From Pseudonocardiales bacterium (GTDB lineage: Bacteria > Actinomycetota > Actinomycetes > Mycobacteriales > Pseudonocardiaceae), in the NCBI GenBank assembly GCA_019241525.1, contig JAFAWY010000052.1:1-64000 (forward strand): DNA of 64,000 bases, given 5' to 3'. A model generated the notes under the pieces. It ran no database searches. It had not been told where the DNA came from and saw only the letters and a program-made list of their open reading frames with translations. Position numbers and translations under genes: made by a program. How positions within the stretch are numbered: the first letter of the stretch is position 1; every line of letters begins with the position of its first letter. Of this stretch, positions 14,345-18,354 are shown piece after piece.

Positions 14345-16039
14345 TCAGGTGCCCAGGGGGTTGAAGCCGGCGGGGAGTTCCAGACGGTGGGCGCTCATGA
14401 AGCCCGGGTCGGCGAGCACTTCCCGAGTGGGCCCGTCAGCGACGATCTGACCGTGGTCGATGACCAGCGCGCGCGGGCACAGTTCCAGCGCGTATGGCAG
14501 ATCATGAGTGACCAGCAGGGTTGTCATGCCCAAGCGCTTGATCAGATCGGCGAACTCCCGCCGCGCGGCCGGATCGAGGTTGGCGGTGGGCTCGTCGAGT
14601 ACGAGTACCTCAGGATGCATGGCCAGCACCGTGGCCACCGCGGCCCGCCGTCGCTCGCCCACAGACAGCCGGTGTGGTGCACGATCGGCGGCGTCGACCA
14701 GACCGACGTACGACAGCGCCTCGGTGACCCGGGACTGCAACTCATCACCCGATAACCCCAGATGGGCAGGTCCGAATGCCACGTCACGTCCCACCGTCGG
14801 CGTGAACAGCTGATCATCGGGGTCCTGGAACACGACGCCTACCCGCCTGCGCACCTCAGTCAACGTGCCCCGCTGGACTTGAAGACCGCCGATGAAAACC
14901 GAGCCGGCTGACGGCGTGAGCACTCCGTTGAGCTGCAGCACCAGGGACGTCTTGCCAGCACCGTTCGGGCCGAGCAAGGCGACCCGCTCACCGGGTTCCA
15001 CCCGCAGCGAGACCCCGGACAGCGCTTGGCGGCCATCCGGGTAGCTGAAGTCGATGTCACGCATTTCGATTGCGGCGTGGTCACCTGCCCGGCGGGAGGC
15101 CGTGGACGAGCCGATGAACCGGCCACGCCGGATCGGCTGTGCCGGAGTGGGCACCCGGGTGGCCCGGCGAGCCCGCCGGGAGCCAGTGGCCGGGCCATCA
15201 CCGTGCGGGGTCAGGGAGACCGGAGTGCCGACCTTGGACTCGTAGCCCGGCAGCTGCACGCGGTAAGCGCACAAGTCGCAATTCATCCGCACGTCGCCGG
15301 TACGCGCTTCCCGGTAGCGCTCCAGCACAATCCGGGCCAGCCGCGGATCCGGGCCGAAATGCTCGGCGGTCCGGACCTCTATCTCGGGATGGTCACGAGC
15401 CCAGGCGCCGGCCTGGGTATAGATCCGGTTCAACAGCACACCCGGGAACAGGAAGAAGGGCGCGACCACGACCGTTGCGGCGCCGAGCAGCCGCAGCCGT
15501 TCCAGCGTCTCAGGCACCGATGGGGTGGCCACGGAGACGAACCCGGGCTCAATGGTGCCCAACCCGCGGCTATCGGCGAGCAACCGGCTGATCTTCCACA
15601 GGTCGGCACAGGCGTCCGGGTCGCTGCACCCTCGGCCGATCAGTGCCACTCCCAGCTTCTCCGAATCGGCGTCACCGGCCGCATCCCGGATCCGGTCCGC
15701 AGCGACCTCCAGGACGTACGGTTCGATGCCCAAGTCGCGGGCCAGGCCGAACTGCACGTGTGGATGCCGGGCACGGGCCCGGGCCAGCGCGGCCGGACCG
15801 TCGTTTTTCAAATGCCCAGCGGCCAGCAGTACCAGCGGCACGCTGACGATGTCCGTGGCGCCGCGAGTTACCAGGTCATCGATGGCCTCATCGACGGTAG
15901 GTGAGGCTAGCTCGATAAACCCGAATCCGGTGAGCAGCTCCCCTGCTGCGGCCCGGATCGTCGCAGCCAACGCCCAGAACTCATCCACGCCGTCCGCATC
16001 CCGGCTGCCGTGTCCCACCACCAGCATGGCTCGGTTCAC
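14345..16039 (-). CDS. Fused sirohydrochlorin (cobalto)chelatase CbiX and ECF-type ATPase CbiO
   Basis: 564 residues in one frame. Residues about 5-300 are CbiX: LVVGHGSRDADGVDEF, VPLVLLAAGHLKNDGP (chelating His), then ALIGRGCSDPDA, VVVAPFFLFPGVL and the C-terminal MNCDLCAYR. After a basic linker, residues about 323-564 are a CbiO ATPase: Walker A GPNGAGKTS near residue 352, Q-loop FQDPDDQLF, signature LSVGERRRAAVA and Walker B VLVLDEPTANLDP. The start is GTG 16039, a GTGA overlap with cbiQ. The fusion couples ATP-driven cobalt uptake to metal insertion into sirohydrochlorin. Iron insertion for siroheme is an alternative chelatase role. Confidence 0.9.
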   Translation of the reverse strand: MNRAMLVVGHGSRDADGVDEFWALAATIRAAAGELLTGFGFIELASPTVDEAIDDLVTRGATDIVSVPLVLLAAGHLKNDGPAALARARARHPHVQFGLARDLGIEPYVLEVAADRIRDAAGDADSEKLGVALIGRGCSDPDACADLWKISRLLADSRGLGTIEPGFVSVATPSVPETLERLRLLGAATVVVAPFFLFPGVLLNRIYTQAGAWARDHPEIEVRTAEHFGPDPRLARIVLERYREARTGDVRMNCDLCAYRVQLPGYESKVGTPVSLTPHGDGPATGSRRARRATRVPTPAQPIRRGRFIGSSTASRRAGDHAAIEMRDIDFSYPDGRQALSGVSLRVEPGERVALLGPNGAGKTSLVLQLNGVLTPSAGSVFIGGLQVQRGTLTEVRRRVGVVFQDPDDQLFTPTVGRDVAFGPAHLGLSGDELQSRVTEALSYVGLVDAADRAPHRLSVGERRRAAVATVLAMHPEVLVLDEPTANLDPAARREFADLIKRLGMTTLLVTHDLPYALELCPRALVIDHGQIVADGPTREVLADPGFMSAHRLELPAGFNPLGT

Positions 16040-16788
16040 GCCAACGCCAACCCGATCGCAGCAAGCGCTGGCACGGCCAACGCACCTACCCACGCGCGGC
16101 GCGGCGCAGCAGCACTGATCAGCGCACTCGGCAATGTTCCGGTGTACCCGCGGGACGCCATCGCGAGATACACCCGTTCGCCGCGCTGGAAGGAGCGGGC
16201 GAGGAGCGCACCCAGCCCGGCTGTCACCTCGCGGACTTGCCATAACCCGCGTGGCTGGGCACCCCGGCACAGCGCCGCGGTACGCATCCGCGCCAGCTCT
16301 GCAGCCAGCACCTCGAGATAGCGGACCATGAACGCGGCCACCGCGGTGAACACCCGCGGTACCCGCAGCCGCTCCAGCCCGGTGACGATGTCCGGCAGCG
16401 GCGTGGTCGCGGCCAGGATCGACGTGGCGAGTAGCCCGAAGGTCGCCTTGAGCGCGATAGTCGCCGCCGCCTGCAGCCCCGGCACAGACAAGGCGATCCC
16501 GAGCATCGTCAGCCGTGGTGGCCCGCCGAGGACCGGCAGTGCCACCACGAACAGCAGGAACGGCACCTCCACCAGCATTCGACGCATCATGATCAACGGT
16601 GACAGCCGGGCTAGTGCGGCAACCGCGGCAAGGAGCAGCAGATCCCACAGATACGGCCGGTACACGCCAGCCGGTGTACACGCCACGGCCAGCACGAACA
16701 GCGTGCTGGCCGCCACCTTGCACTGTGGCGCCAACCGGTGCACCGGCGTGTCGGCAGGGATGAGCAACCCTTGGTGTGTCGTGCTCAT
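16036..16788 (-). CDS. cbiQ: Cobalt ECF transporter transmembrane subunit CbiQ
   Basis: 250 residues with several hydrophobic segments (VAASTLFVLAVACTP, DLLLLAAVAALA, VPFLLFVVALPVL, AWVGALAVPALAAIGLALA). The family's cytoplasmic coupling helices follow, with an ARS-like motif (LLARSFQRGERVYLAMASRGYTG). CbiQ is the T component that pairs with CbiO and the substrate-binding CbiM/CbiN. No cbiM or cbiN lies in the window, so that component must be encoded elsewhere. It is co-transcribed with cbiX-cbiO (4-base overlap) and follows the SUMT gene by 18 bases. Confidence 0.9.
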   Translation of the reverse strand: MSTTHQGLLIPADTPVHRLAPQCKVAASTLFVLAVACTPAGVYRPYLWDLLLLAAVAALARLSPLIMMRRMLVEVPFLLFVVALPVLGGPPRLTMLGIALSVPGLQAAATIALKATFGLLATSILAATTPLPDIVTGLERLRVPRVFTAVAAFMVRYLEVLAAELARMRTAALCRGAQPRGLWQVREVTAGLGALLARSFQRGERVYLAMASRGYTGTLPSALISAAAPRRAWVGALAVPALAAIGLALA

Positions 16789-16806
16789 GATGCCGGTTGG
16801 ACGTGG

Positions 16807-17535
16807 TCAGGAATGCGCACAGCGCACCTCAGCCGTCAAGGCGGCGACGTCCAACGCTGCAACGTCGCCGATCACGATGGTCAACGGCGCGGGCAGCCGA
16901 GCCGAGGGGGGCTGGGCCAGGGTGCCGCGGGCAGTGCGCTGCCGCGGGCGGGTGGCGGCGCTGATTGCGGCCACCGGGGTGGTGGGTGACATCCCGCCTG
17001 CTCGCAGGGCTGCGATCACCCGGTGCAGCGCTGCGCGCCCGGTCAACAGCACCACCGTGCCACCCAGGCGCGCCACCGCCGTCCAGTCCACCTCGTCGAC
17101 GCCGTCGTTACCGGCGACCACCGTCAGCGTACGGACGTGCTGGCGCACCATCACCGGAATCCCTGCCGCGGCCGGCGCGGCTATCGCGGCGGACACCCCT
17201 GGCACCACGTCGACGGCCACCCCGGCGTCGGCCAAGGCCACCGCCTCCTCGCCGCCGCGGGACACCACGAACGGGTCGCCGGATTTCAACCGCACCACGC
17301 AGGCGCCGGTCTTACCGAGTTCGATGAGCAGGGCGTTGATCTCGTCCTGTGATGGTGCGGGGGTGGTGCCTTGCTTGCCAACGCAGTGCTTGGTAGCGCC
17401 AGGGGCAAGCGCCAGAATCTCCGCCATGGAAGCGCGGTCGTACACCACGTGCTCGGCGGCGGCCAGCAATGCGGCACCCCGGCGGGTGAGCAGCTGCGGA
17501 TCCCCGGGCCCGGCCCCGACCAAATGCACGGTCAC
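16807..17535 (-). CDS. cobA: Uroporphyrinogen-III C-methyltransferase-like protein (divergent SUMT)
   Basis: 242 residues of the corrin-methylase fold: VHLVGAGPGDPQLLT, VRLKSGDPFVVSRGGEEA, VPGVSAAIAAPAAAGIPV. The usual SUMT segments RLKGGDPF(V/I)FGRGGEE and THRG...TGH are altered here to RLKSGDPFVVS and MVRQ..VVAGN. A canonical SUMT is present in cysG (21169), so this copy may be the B12-specific paralogue or have a shifted role. GTG 17535 overlaps the stop of a 13-codon micro-ORF by GTGA. The expected reaction is two methylations, at C2 and C7, to precorrin-2. Confidence 0.8.
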   Translation of the reverse strand: MTVHLVGAGPGDPQLLTRRGAALLAAAEHVVYDRASMAEILALAPGATKHCVGKQGTTPAPSQDEINALLIELGKTGACVVRLKSGDPFVVSRGGEEAVALADAGVAVDVVPGVSAAIAAPAAAGIPVMVRQHVRTLTVVAGNDGVDEVDWTAVARLGGTVVLLTGRAALHRVIAALRAGGMSPTTPVAAISAATRPRQRTARGTLAQPPSARLPAPLTIVIGDVAALDVAALTAEVRCAHS

Positions 17536-17595
17536 AATGCCGCCTCCGCGGGACCAAGTACGTCGGCGGTCACAATGCCGCCTCCGCGGGACCAA
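17529..17595. repeat. 29-bp direct repeat, period 38, spanning the SUMT translation start
   Basis: Bases 17529-17557 and 17567-17595 are identical (29 bp) with an offset of 38. Each copy encodes the tail GPAEAAL plus a stop/start overlap. The 38-base period equals 14 codons minus the four-base overlap, so each unit keeps translational coupling intact. Confidence 0.9.
17532..17573 (-). CDS. Coupled 13-codon micro-ORF 2 ahead of SUMT gene
   Basis: GTG 17573 opens a frame reading MTADVLGPAEAAL and stops at TGA 17534-17532. Its start overlaps the stop of micro-ORF 1, and its stop overlaps the GTG of the SUMT gene. It shares its last seven residues with micro-ORF 1. Translation is inferred only from the stop/start overlaps. 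A chance result of the 38-bp duplication is possible. Confidence 0.4.
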   Translation of the reverse strand: MTADVLGPAEAAL

Positions 17596-17611
17596 CCACT
17601 TCGGTCCTCAT
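17570..17611 (-). CDS. Coupled 13-codon micro-ORF 1 after cobJ
   Basis: ATG 17611 overlaps the cobJ stop as ATGA and opens a frame reading MRTEVVGPAEAAL, stopping at TGA 17572-17570. That stop overlaps the GTG of micro-ORF 2. A ribosome finishing cobJ could reinitiate through both micro-ORFs to reach the SUMT gene. No ribosome site of its own is visible. Confidence 0.4.
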   Translation of the reverse strand: MRTEVVGPAEAAL

Positions 17612-18354
17612 AAGGCTCCGAGAGACCGTGCCGTCACCAGCCAGTCGCCAAGCCGGTTGGTGCTTGTGCCGCCGACGATCACGACGGTGTGCATCCCGGC
17701 TTGGGCCGGGTCCAGCGTGGCCAGCGTGGTCAGCTCCACCTGTGTACTGTCTCGCCCCGCGTCGGTGACCAGCCCGACCGGGGTGTCACCCGGCCGGTAT
17801 TCGACCAGCACCTCGCGTGCCCGGCCTAGCTGCCACGAACGTCCCCGGGAGCGGGGGTTGTACAAGGCCAGTACCAGGTCAGCGGCAGCCACCGCGCGCA
17901 GCCGCGCTTCGACCGCCTCCCAAGGCGCGAGCGCATCGGACAGGGTCAAGCAGGCGAAATCGCGGGCCAAGGGCGCGCCGAGCAGCGCTGCGGCCGCAAC
18001 AGCCGCCGTGATACCAGGCACGACCTGAACTGCGGGTCGCTGCGCCGGCGGCAGCGCGGCAACCGTCGTCAGCGCCAACGAAGCCATGCCGTAGATCCCG
18101 GCGTCACCGGAAGACACCAATGCCACCCGAGCTCCGCCGGCTGCGGCACGTACGGCATCCTCGGCGCGTTGCTGCTCTGCGCCGATACCGCTGGATAGCA
18201 CGCATTGGTGTGGGCCGGTGAGATCCGCGCAGGCCATCAGGTAAGCCTGGTATCCCAGGACAACCTGGGCGTCCCGGACGGCGTCCTCAGCGGCTCGGGT
18301 GCGATGGGCAGCACCGCCTGGCCCCAGACCGACGACAGCAAGCGTGCCCGTCAC
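17608..18354 (-). CDS. cobJ: Precorrin-3B C17-methyltransferase
   Basis: 248 residues. The corrin-methylase landmarks are VVGLGPGG at the N terminus, VVLGYQAYL, VLSSGIGAEQQRAEDAV, VALVSSGDAGIYGMASL near residue 78, VPGITAAVAAAALLGAPLARDFACLTLSD and LALYNPRSRGR. These match CobJ/CbiH, which methylates C17 with ring contraction. GTG 18354 is used as the start. Its frame ends in an ATGA overlap with a micro-ORF that leads to the SUMT gene. A 285-base AT-richer gap separates it from cobM. Confidence 0.93.
   Translation of the reverse strand: MTGTLAVVGLGPGGAAHRTRAAEDAVRDAQVVLGYQAYLMACADLTGPHQCVLSSGIGAEQQRAEDAVRAAAGGARVALVSSGDAGIYGMASLALTTVAALPPAQRPAVQVVPGITAAVAAAALLGAPLARDFACLTLSDALAPWEAVEARLRAVAAADLVLALYNPRSRGRSWQLGRAREVLVEYRPGDTPVGLVTDAGRDSTQVELTTLATLDPAQAGMHTVVIVGGTSTNRLGDWLVTARSLGAL

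Follow-up and report, generated by a model that had tools for sequence, protein, structure and literature searches.

A 38-bp repeat between cobJ and the SUMT gene is very probably a MIRU-like element occupying stop/start overlaps in soil actinobacteria

MIRUs are used worldwide in tuberculosis typing. Among other families of small repeats, REP/RAYT and IS200/IS605-type elements are short non-autonomous repeats dispersed in intergenic DNA, and Rickettsia palindromic elements are small mobile sequences that are tolerated since reading frames stay open. The MIRU model, due to Supply et al. (1997), includes tandem copy-number variation, as far as it is summarised in PMC12548453, and the length of MIRUs ranges from 40 to 100 bp (PMC2734929). 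Their mode of movement is settled in no accessible source. In the literature searched, which left most subscription journals outside its scope, there was no earlier description of such an element outside mycobacteria, and the term "MIRU-like" occurred in one unrelated cyanobacterial paper.

We describe here a repeat found between two genes in the window, that is, the whole 64-kb stretch of DNA that was analysed. The gap between cobJ and the SUMT gene, read directly on the minus strand from 17611 to 17529, is ATGAGGACCGAAGTGGTTGGTCCCGCGGAGGCGGCATTGTGACCGCCGACGTACTTGGTCCCGCGGAGGCGGCATTGTGACCG. The features of this junction are the following:

17608..18354, minus strand: cobJ, precorrin-3B C17-methyltransferase, upstream gene (NCBIfam TIGR01466, 265.7 bits, cut-off 246.35)
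17570..17611, minus strand: micro-ORF 1, ATG...TGA, 13 codons, MRTEVVGPAEAAL (from the sequence)
17573..17610, minus strand: element copy 1, 38 bp, TGAGGACC...GGCATTG, bounded by the cobJ TGA and the first base of the following start (profile R1 match 17568-17609, E 2.5e-10)
17581..17585, minus strand: Shine-Dalgarno-like GGAGG of copy 1, 7 nt before GTG 17573
17532..17573, minus strand: micro-ORF 2, GTG...TGA, 13 codons, VTADVLGPAEAAL (from the sequence)
17535..17572, minus strand: element copy 2, 38 bp, TGACCGCC...GGCATTG (R1 match 17530-17567, E 2.4e-12)
17543..17547, minus strand: Shine-Dalgarno-like GGAGG of copy 2, 7 nt before the SUMT GTG 17535
16807..17535, minus strand: SUMT gene, uroporphyrinogen-III C-methyltransferase, downstream gene (NCBIfam TIGR01469, 216.6 bits, cut-off 185)

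The gap consists of two direct 38-bp units in tandem, identical at 35 of 38 positions with 29 bp of contiguous identity, which bears out the duplication proposed in the initial annotation. Four ORFs (cobJ, micro-ORF 1, micro-ORF 2 and SUMT) are chained by 4-nt overlaps: the ATG of micro-ORF 1 (17611) overlaps the cobJ stop (17610-17608) as ATGA, the GTG of micro-ORF 2 (17573) overlaps the stop of micro-ORF 1 as GTGA, and the SUMT GTG (17535) overlaps the stop of micro-ORF 2, again as GTGA. The chain of coupled-looking micro-ORFs that had been described can thus be read directly in the sequence, and the accompanying arithmetic holds, since 14 codons less a 4-nt overlap make 38 bp and duplication keeps the overlaps. 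All descriptive details of the initial annotation that were examined proved correct. In both units, GGAGG is present 7 nt ahead of the next start. When identity at an offset of 38 was monitored across the 64 kb, the maximum of 35/38 was reached at 17529 only, while the 99.9th percentile was 20/38; the doubling of the unit is therefore not a matter of chance.

Two long open frames in the window should also be mentioned. A 566-codon frame on the plus strand (16328-18028) covers cobJ, the units and SUMT in antisense and is probably an effect of high G+C rather than a gene. On the minus strand (14345-16723), one unbroken 792-codon frame carries sequences that were judged by eye to be CbiX-like and cobalt ABC-ATPase-like (CbiO), and is either a fusion or a chance read-through.

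We propose that the 38-bp unit is, with high probability, a copy of a MIRU-like short interspersed repeat, which has no transposase of its own and occupies DTGA overlaps within operons. The repeat is present in many soil actinobacteria. Beyond what the initial annotation had seen, the unit is dispersed in the same genome. A genome pattern search revealed two units at purN/purH, with a near-identical 13-codon ORF ahead of purH, and the N-terminus of purH is itself a further copy; the junction between sufD and a Rieske-type ferredoxin gene also carries two units. At this last junction (L109, G000:C16:85777-85858), one extra base (ATGGACC) lies between the two units and opens the frame from the start of the second unit into the Rieske gene, which could add 13 residues N-terminally.

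To follow the unit further, we used a sequence-only profile (R1) of 43 nt, built from 17 copies, whose E-values are only roughly calibrated. Matches were obtained in all 11 members of the genus, with 7 in the window's genome. Weak R1 matches (E above 1e-3) and single ones in families f3, f4 and f16 of the wider order are possibly due to chance and were left out. The sites in congeners include argJ/argB, ruvX/mltG and the region upstream of zwf, and further sites, whose genes were named by eye, are comEA/comEC, acpP/fabF and hopanoid genes. Family searches confirmed the identities of purN, purH, sufD, argJ, zwf, nadB and ruvX; the Rieske-type protein gave a family match below the cut-off only, and mltG matched no model in these searches. 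Some units lie within proteins: two are in frame at the N-terminus of the L-aspartate oxidase NadB (L114, G009:C227:18727-18800), and a 39-bp in-frame array is found at a protein N-terminus in L158. These N-terminal units add TADVL-PAEAA-type repeats to the protein.

The comparison of relatives showed empty and filled alleles of the same junctions. At cobJ/SUMT, two units are found in the window's genome (G000) and in the relative G009, and one in G010 and G003, that of G003 being decayed. A different insert is present in G006, and a plain GTGA overlap with no unit in G002, G004, G005, G007 and G008 as well as in the outgroups G015 and G028. Similarly, purN/purH is a plain DTGA overlap in 8 congeners, and sufD/Rieske is one in 9 congeners, while G000 and G009 carry there a two-unit array between ATGA and ATGA. 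The empty alleles are DTGA overlaps at all three sites (cobJ/SUMT, purN/purH and sufD/Rieske), and the target is therefore the stop/start overlap, with insertion recreating one at each end.

These alleles bear on the role first attributed to the unit, namely that the micro-ORFs evolved at cobJ/SUMT as a local regulatory device setting the ratio of the two enzymes and tuned by copy number. The chained overlaps with their good SD motifs, located between genes of the same pathway, speak for such a device, and the variation in copy number among relatives that was to be looked for does exist (0, 1 or 2 units at this junction). However, near-identical units occupy unrelated junctions in the same genome and family, the unit being present at dozens of such junctions, and five congeners and two outgroups do without the unit at cobJ/SUMT. 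As to what had been said to speak against the idea, relatives lacking the micro-ORF while cobA is expressed equally well, the first half is found in these seven genomes. We therefore do not retain the tuning of SUMT relative to cobJ as the reason for the unit, and a local device appears very unlikely, while a mobile element that secondarily affects expression is possible.

What the copies of the unit conserve was examined as well. Intact 13-codon ORFs with both overlaps were found in 90 of 161 profile matches; the other 71 are 39-bp in-frame arrays, N-terminal fusions or decayed copies, so that not all copies behave as described. Among 67 intact copies, 56 have GGAGG at 7-nt spacing, and 11 have no exact GGAGG. 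Over 67 loci, the mean entropy was 0.51, 0.60 and 0.57 bits for codon positions 1, 2 and 3, respectively (0.59, 0.66 and 0.56 for codons 2-8 only), without any third-position excess. Since the codon positions vary equally, there is no sign of selection on the peptide. The frame and the overlaps are kept and the peptide is not.

The ruvX/mltG junction offers an example of old copies. The unit is present there in 8 congeners, and the 7 fully readable copies are open over 13 or 14 codons and all end in DTGA on mltG, with a diverged peptide (MTADVLGPAEAAP, VITANPHRRAEAAV and MTADIRPRVQAAS among others). Two further loci, L293 (G000:C131) and L295 (G009:C6), have no unit at this place and carry another ORF of 40 codons, which contains repeated GTGTCGT motifs and overlaps mltG via ATGA.

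It had also been suggested that the peptides themselves are the purpose of the micro-ORFs; in that case, selection on functional 13-residue peptides would keep the copies alike. The core TADVL-PAEAA is indeed recognisable in many copies, but common descent accounts for this likeness, the flat entropy profile argues against such selection, and old copies at ruvX/mltG tolerate divergent peptides while keeping the frame. We consider this explanation highly improbable and abandon it. To a similarly slight degree, we credit an RNA-structured element, that is, an SD-hiding hairpin or an attenuator. A CCGCC close to the 5' end is a potential pairing partner for GGCGG in the SD region, but fold z-scores were -0.4 to -1.2, the consensus folding energy was -0.6 kcal/mol with a 4-bp stem, and pairing of the SD was lower (0.61) than when the 5' sequence was shuffled (0.76). 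An Rfam search of the unit gave no match.

The MIRU-like repeat is not confined to one genus. In the family, R1 matched 170 of 390 genomes and 20 of 46 genera at E<=1e-4. Of 397 genomes sampled evenly across the order, 31 were matched, nearly all of the same family. The two clear outliers of that sample are G047 (f12), with 22 matches, and G049 (f14), with 6 matches at E<=1e-3; the many copies in these genomes suggest that the repeat arose earlier or passed from one family to another. With fuller scoring of 17 genomes, 4 to 54 matches per genome were counted at E<=0.01 (54, 44, 39, 27 and 26 in the richest ones). Some of the copy numbers are from metagenome bins, where tandem arrays may have been collapsed. 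Arrays comprise 2-5 units with a spacing of mostly 38 bp, at times 37 or 39 bp.

To assess site specificity, a census was made of 60 sites in 11 genomes, drawn from strong matches and hence not a random sample; long ORFs were those of at least 60 codons, and background rates were taken from the same DNA. The 3' end of the unit coincides with a long-ORF start codon at 50 of 60 sites (background 1.9%), its 5' TGA closes a long ORF at 38 of 60 (0.27%), and both ends coincide with a long-ORF stop and start at 35 of 60 (0.12%). The orientation is that of the flanking genes, 50 of the 60 units ending at a start on the same strand and several others having an ATGA 3 nt earlier. Moreover, copies of one genome resemble each other somewhat more closely, with 6.5 differences per 35 nt as against 7.7 for copies from different genomes (permutation p 0.0065), which is consistent with spread inside genomes.

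Convergence, by which strong ribosome-binding sites and common first codons (ATG ACC GCC) would look alike by chance with no element at all, can practically be dismissed: part of the conservation is indeed SD and start (GGAGGCGG...RTGACC), but the likeness spans 43 nt with E down to 7.5e-15, a reversed pattern gave 1 match in the 11 genomes against 32 with the true pattern, and there are tandem arrays with a 38-bp period and precise empty alleles. For strong copies this idea is refuted, while it is possible for weak matches (E above about 1e-3).

Given the anatomy of the unit, we picture the behaviour of the MIRU-like element as follows. Each unit provides first a TGA, then a 13-codon micro-ORF with GGAGG at 7 nt, and last a new DTG start overlapping the TGA of the micro-ORF. 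Insertion therefore swaps one gene-gene 4-nt overlap for two, the micro-ORF now standing between the genes, and each tandem duplication, at 38 bp or 14 codons less 4 nt, adds one more link. Most likely, a ribosome finishing the upstream gene would re-initiate at the micro-ORF with the aid of the nearby SD, and then at the downstream gene. Insertion would be tolerated because the operon keeps its coupling, and the unit could be freely duplicated. The unit would then be near-neutral for the operon and persist for that reason, the peptide being a by-product.

We infer the movement of the element from its distribution; no transposition event or enzyme was seen. Spread by recombination via the shared RTGACC(GCC) and SD-start sequence is one possibility. 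We are evenly divided on whether this is a separately evolved class of mobile micro-cistron, sequence-unrelated to MIRUs, which targets stop/start overlaps in Pseudonocardiaceae and in a small number of further families of the order. If it is, insertion into DTGA overlaps would be a recurrent way of life for small repeats, and the spreading machinery would be something other than a Y1 transposase.

The unit represents a probable second, sequence-unrelated family following the MIRU insertion rule, present in many genera, some with near-complete genomes. Its clean empty and filled alleles provide a comparative system for studying the spread of such elements and their influence on the translation of operons. 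For annotators, it is also a warning that chained overlapping micro-ORFs in these bacteria are repeat copies, not necessarily regulators or peptide genes.

Compared with other known systems, the unit resembles translationally coupled leader or micro-ORFs in that the stop-start overlap and the SD would pass the ribosome to the next gene, but those are fixed parts of one operon, whereas the unit is dispersed over unrelated genes. As with Rickettsia palindromic elements, reading frames stay open, certain copies forming in-frame fusions at the N-terminus of proteins (nadB, purH); unlike them, the main form is a separate micro-ORF between genes, not inside them, and there is no palindrome. The unit also differs from REP/RAYT and IS200/IS605-type elements, having no conserved (subterminal) hairpin. 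Of 20 genomes that bear the element, 18 have no Y1 transposase (PF01797), some of these being near-complete in one to three contigs, and Y1/RAYT mobilisation was rejected as a general driver.

With MIRUs, the differences are that the unit belongs to another family of bacteria and measures 38 bp, as against 40-100 bp. A 53-bp MIRU-type unit was recovered at senX3-regX3 of several mycobacteria (ATGACC...SD...DTGA, 18 codons), with the anatomy of the 38-bp unit, using a RegX3 query whose matches reached up to 99% identity; the junction is filled in L258, L261, L263, L264 and L266 and empty in L254-L256. Inside the shared ends, the 38-bp and 53-bp units showed no likeness (local score 10.0, shuffled mean 11.7, p 0.91), and R1 had no match at E<=1e-3 in family f8, which holds the senX3-regX3 units. 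This sequence comparison, and with it the test of homology to MIRUs, covered the 53-bp unit alone among the MIRU classes. In its organisation, the unit is nevertheless like a MIRU: it is interspersed at many loci of one genome (7 matches here, up to 54 elsewhere), encloses a small ORF joined by DTGA to the gene on either side, its start overlapping the stop of the preceding gene and its stop the start of the following one, sits in pre-existing stop/start overlaps for which relatives have empty alleles (three sites), is oriented as the flanking genes, and varies in tandem copy number (0, 1 or 2 at cobJ/SUMT, arrays of up to 5). The 38-bp unit thus appears to work as MIRUs do, and "MIRU-like element" is the most fitting name for it.
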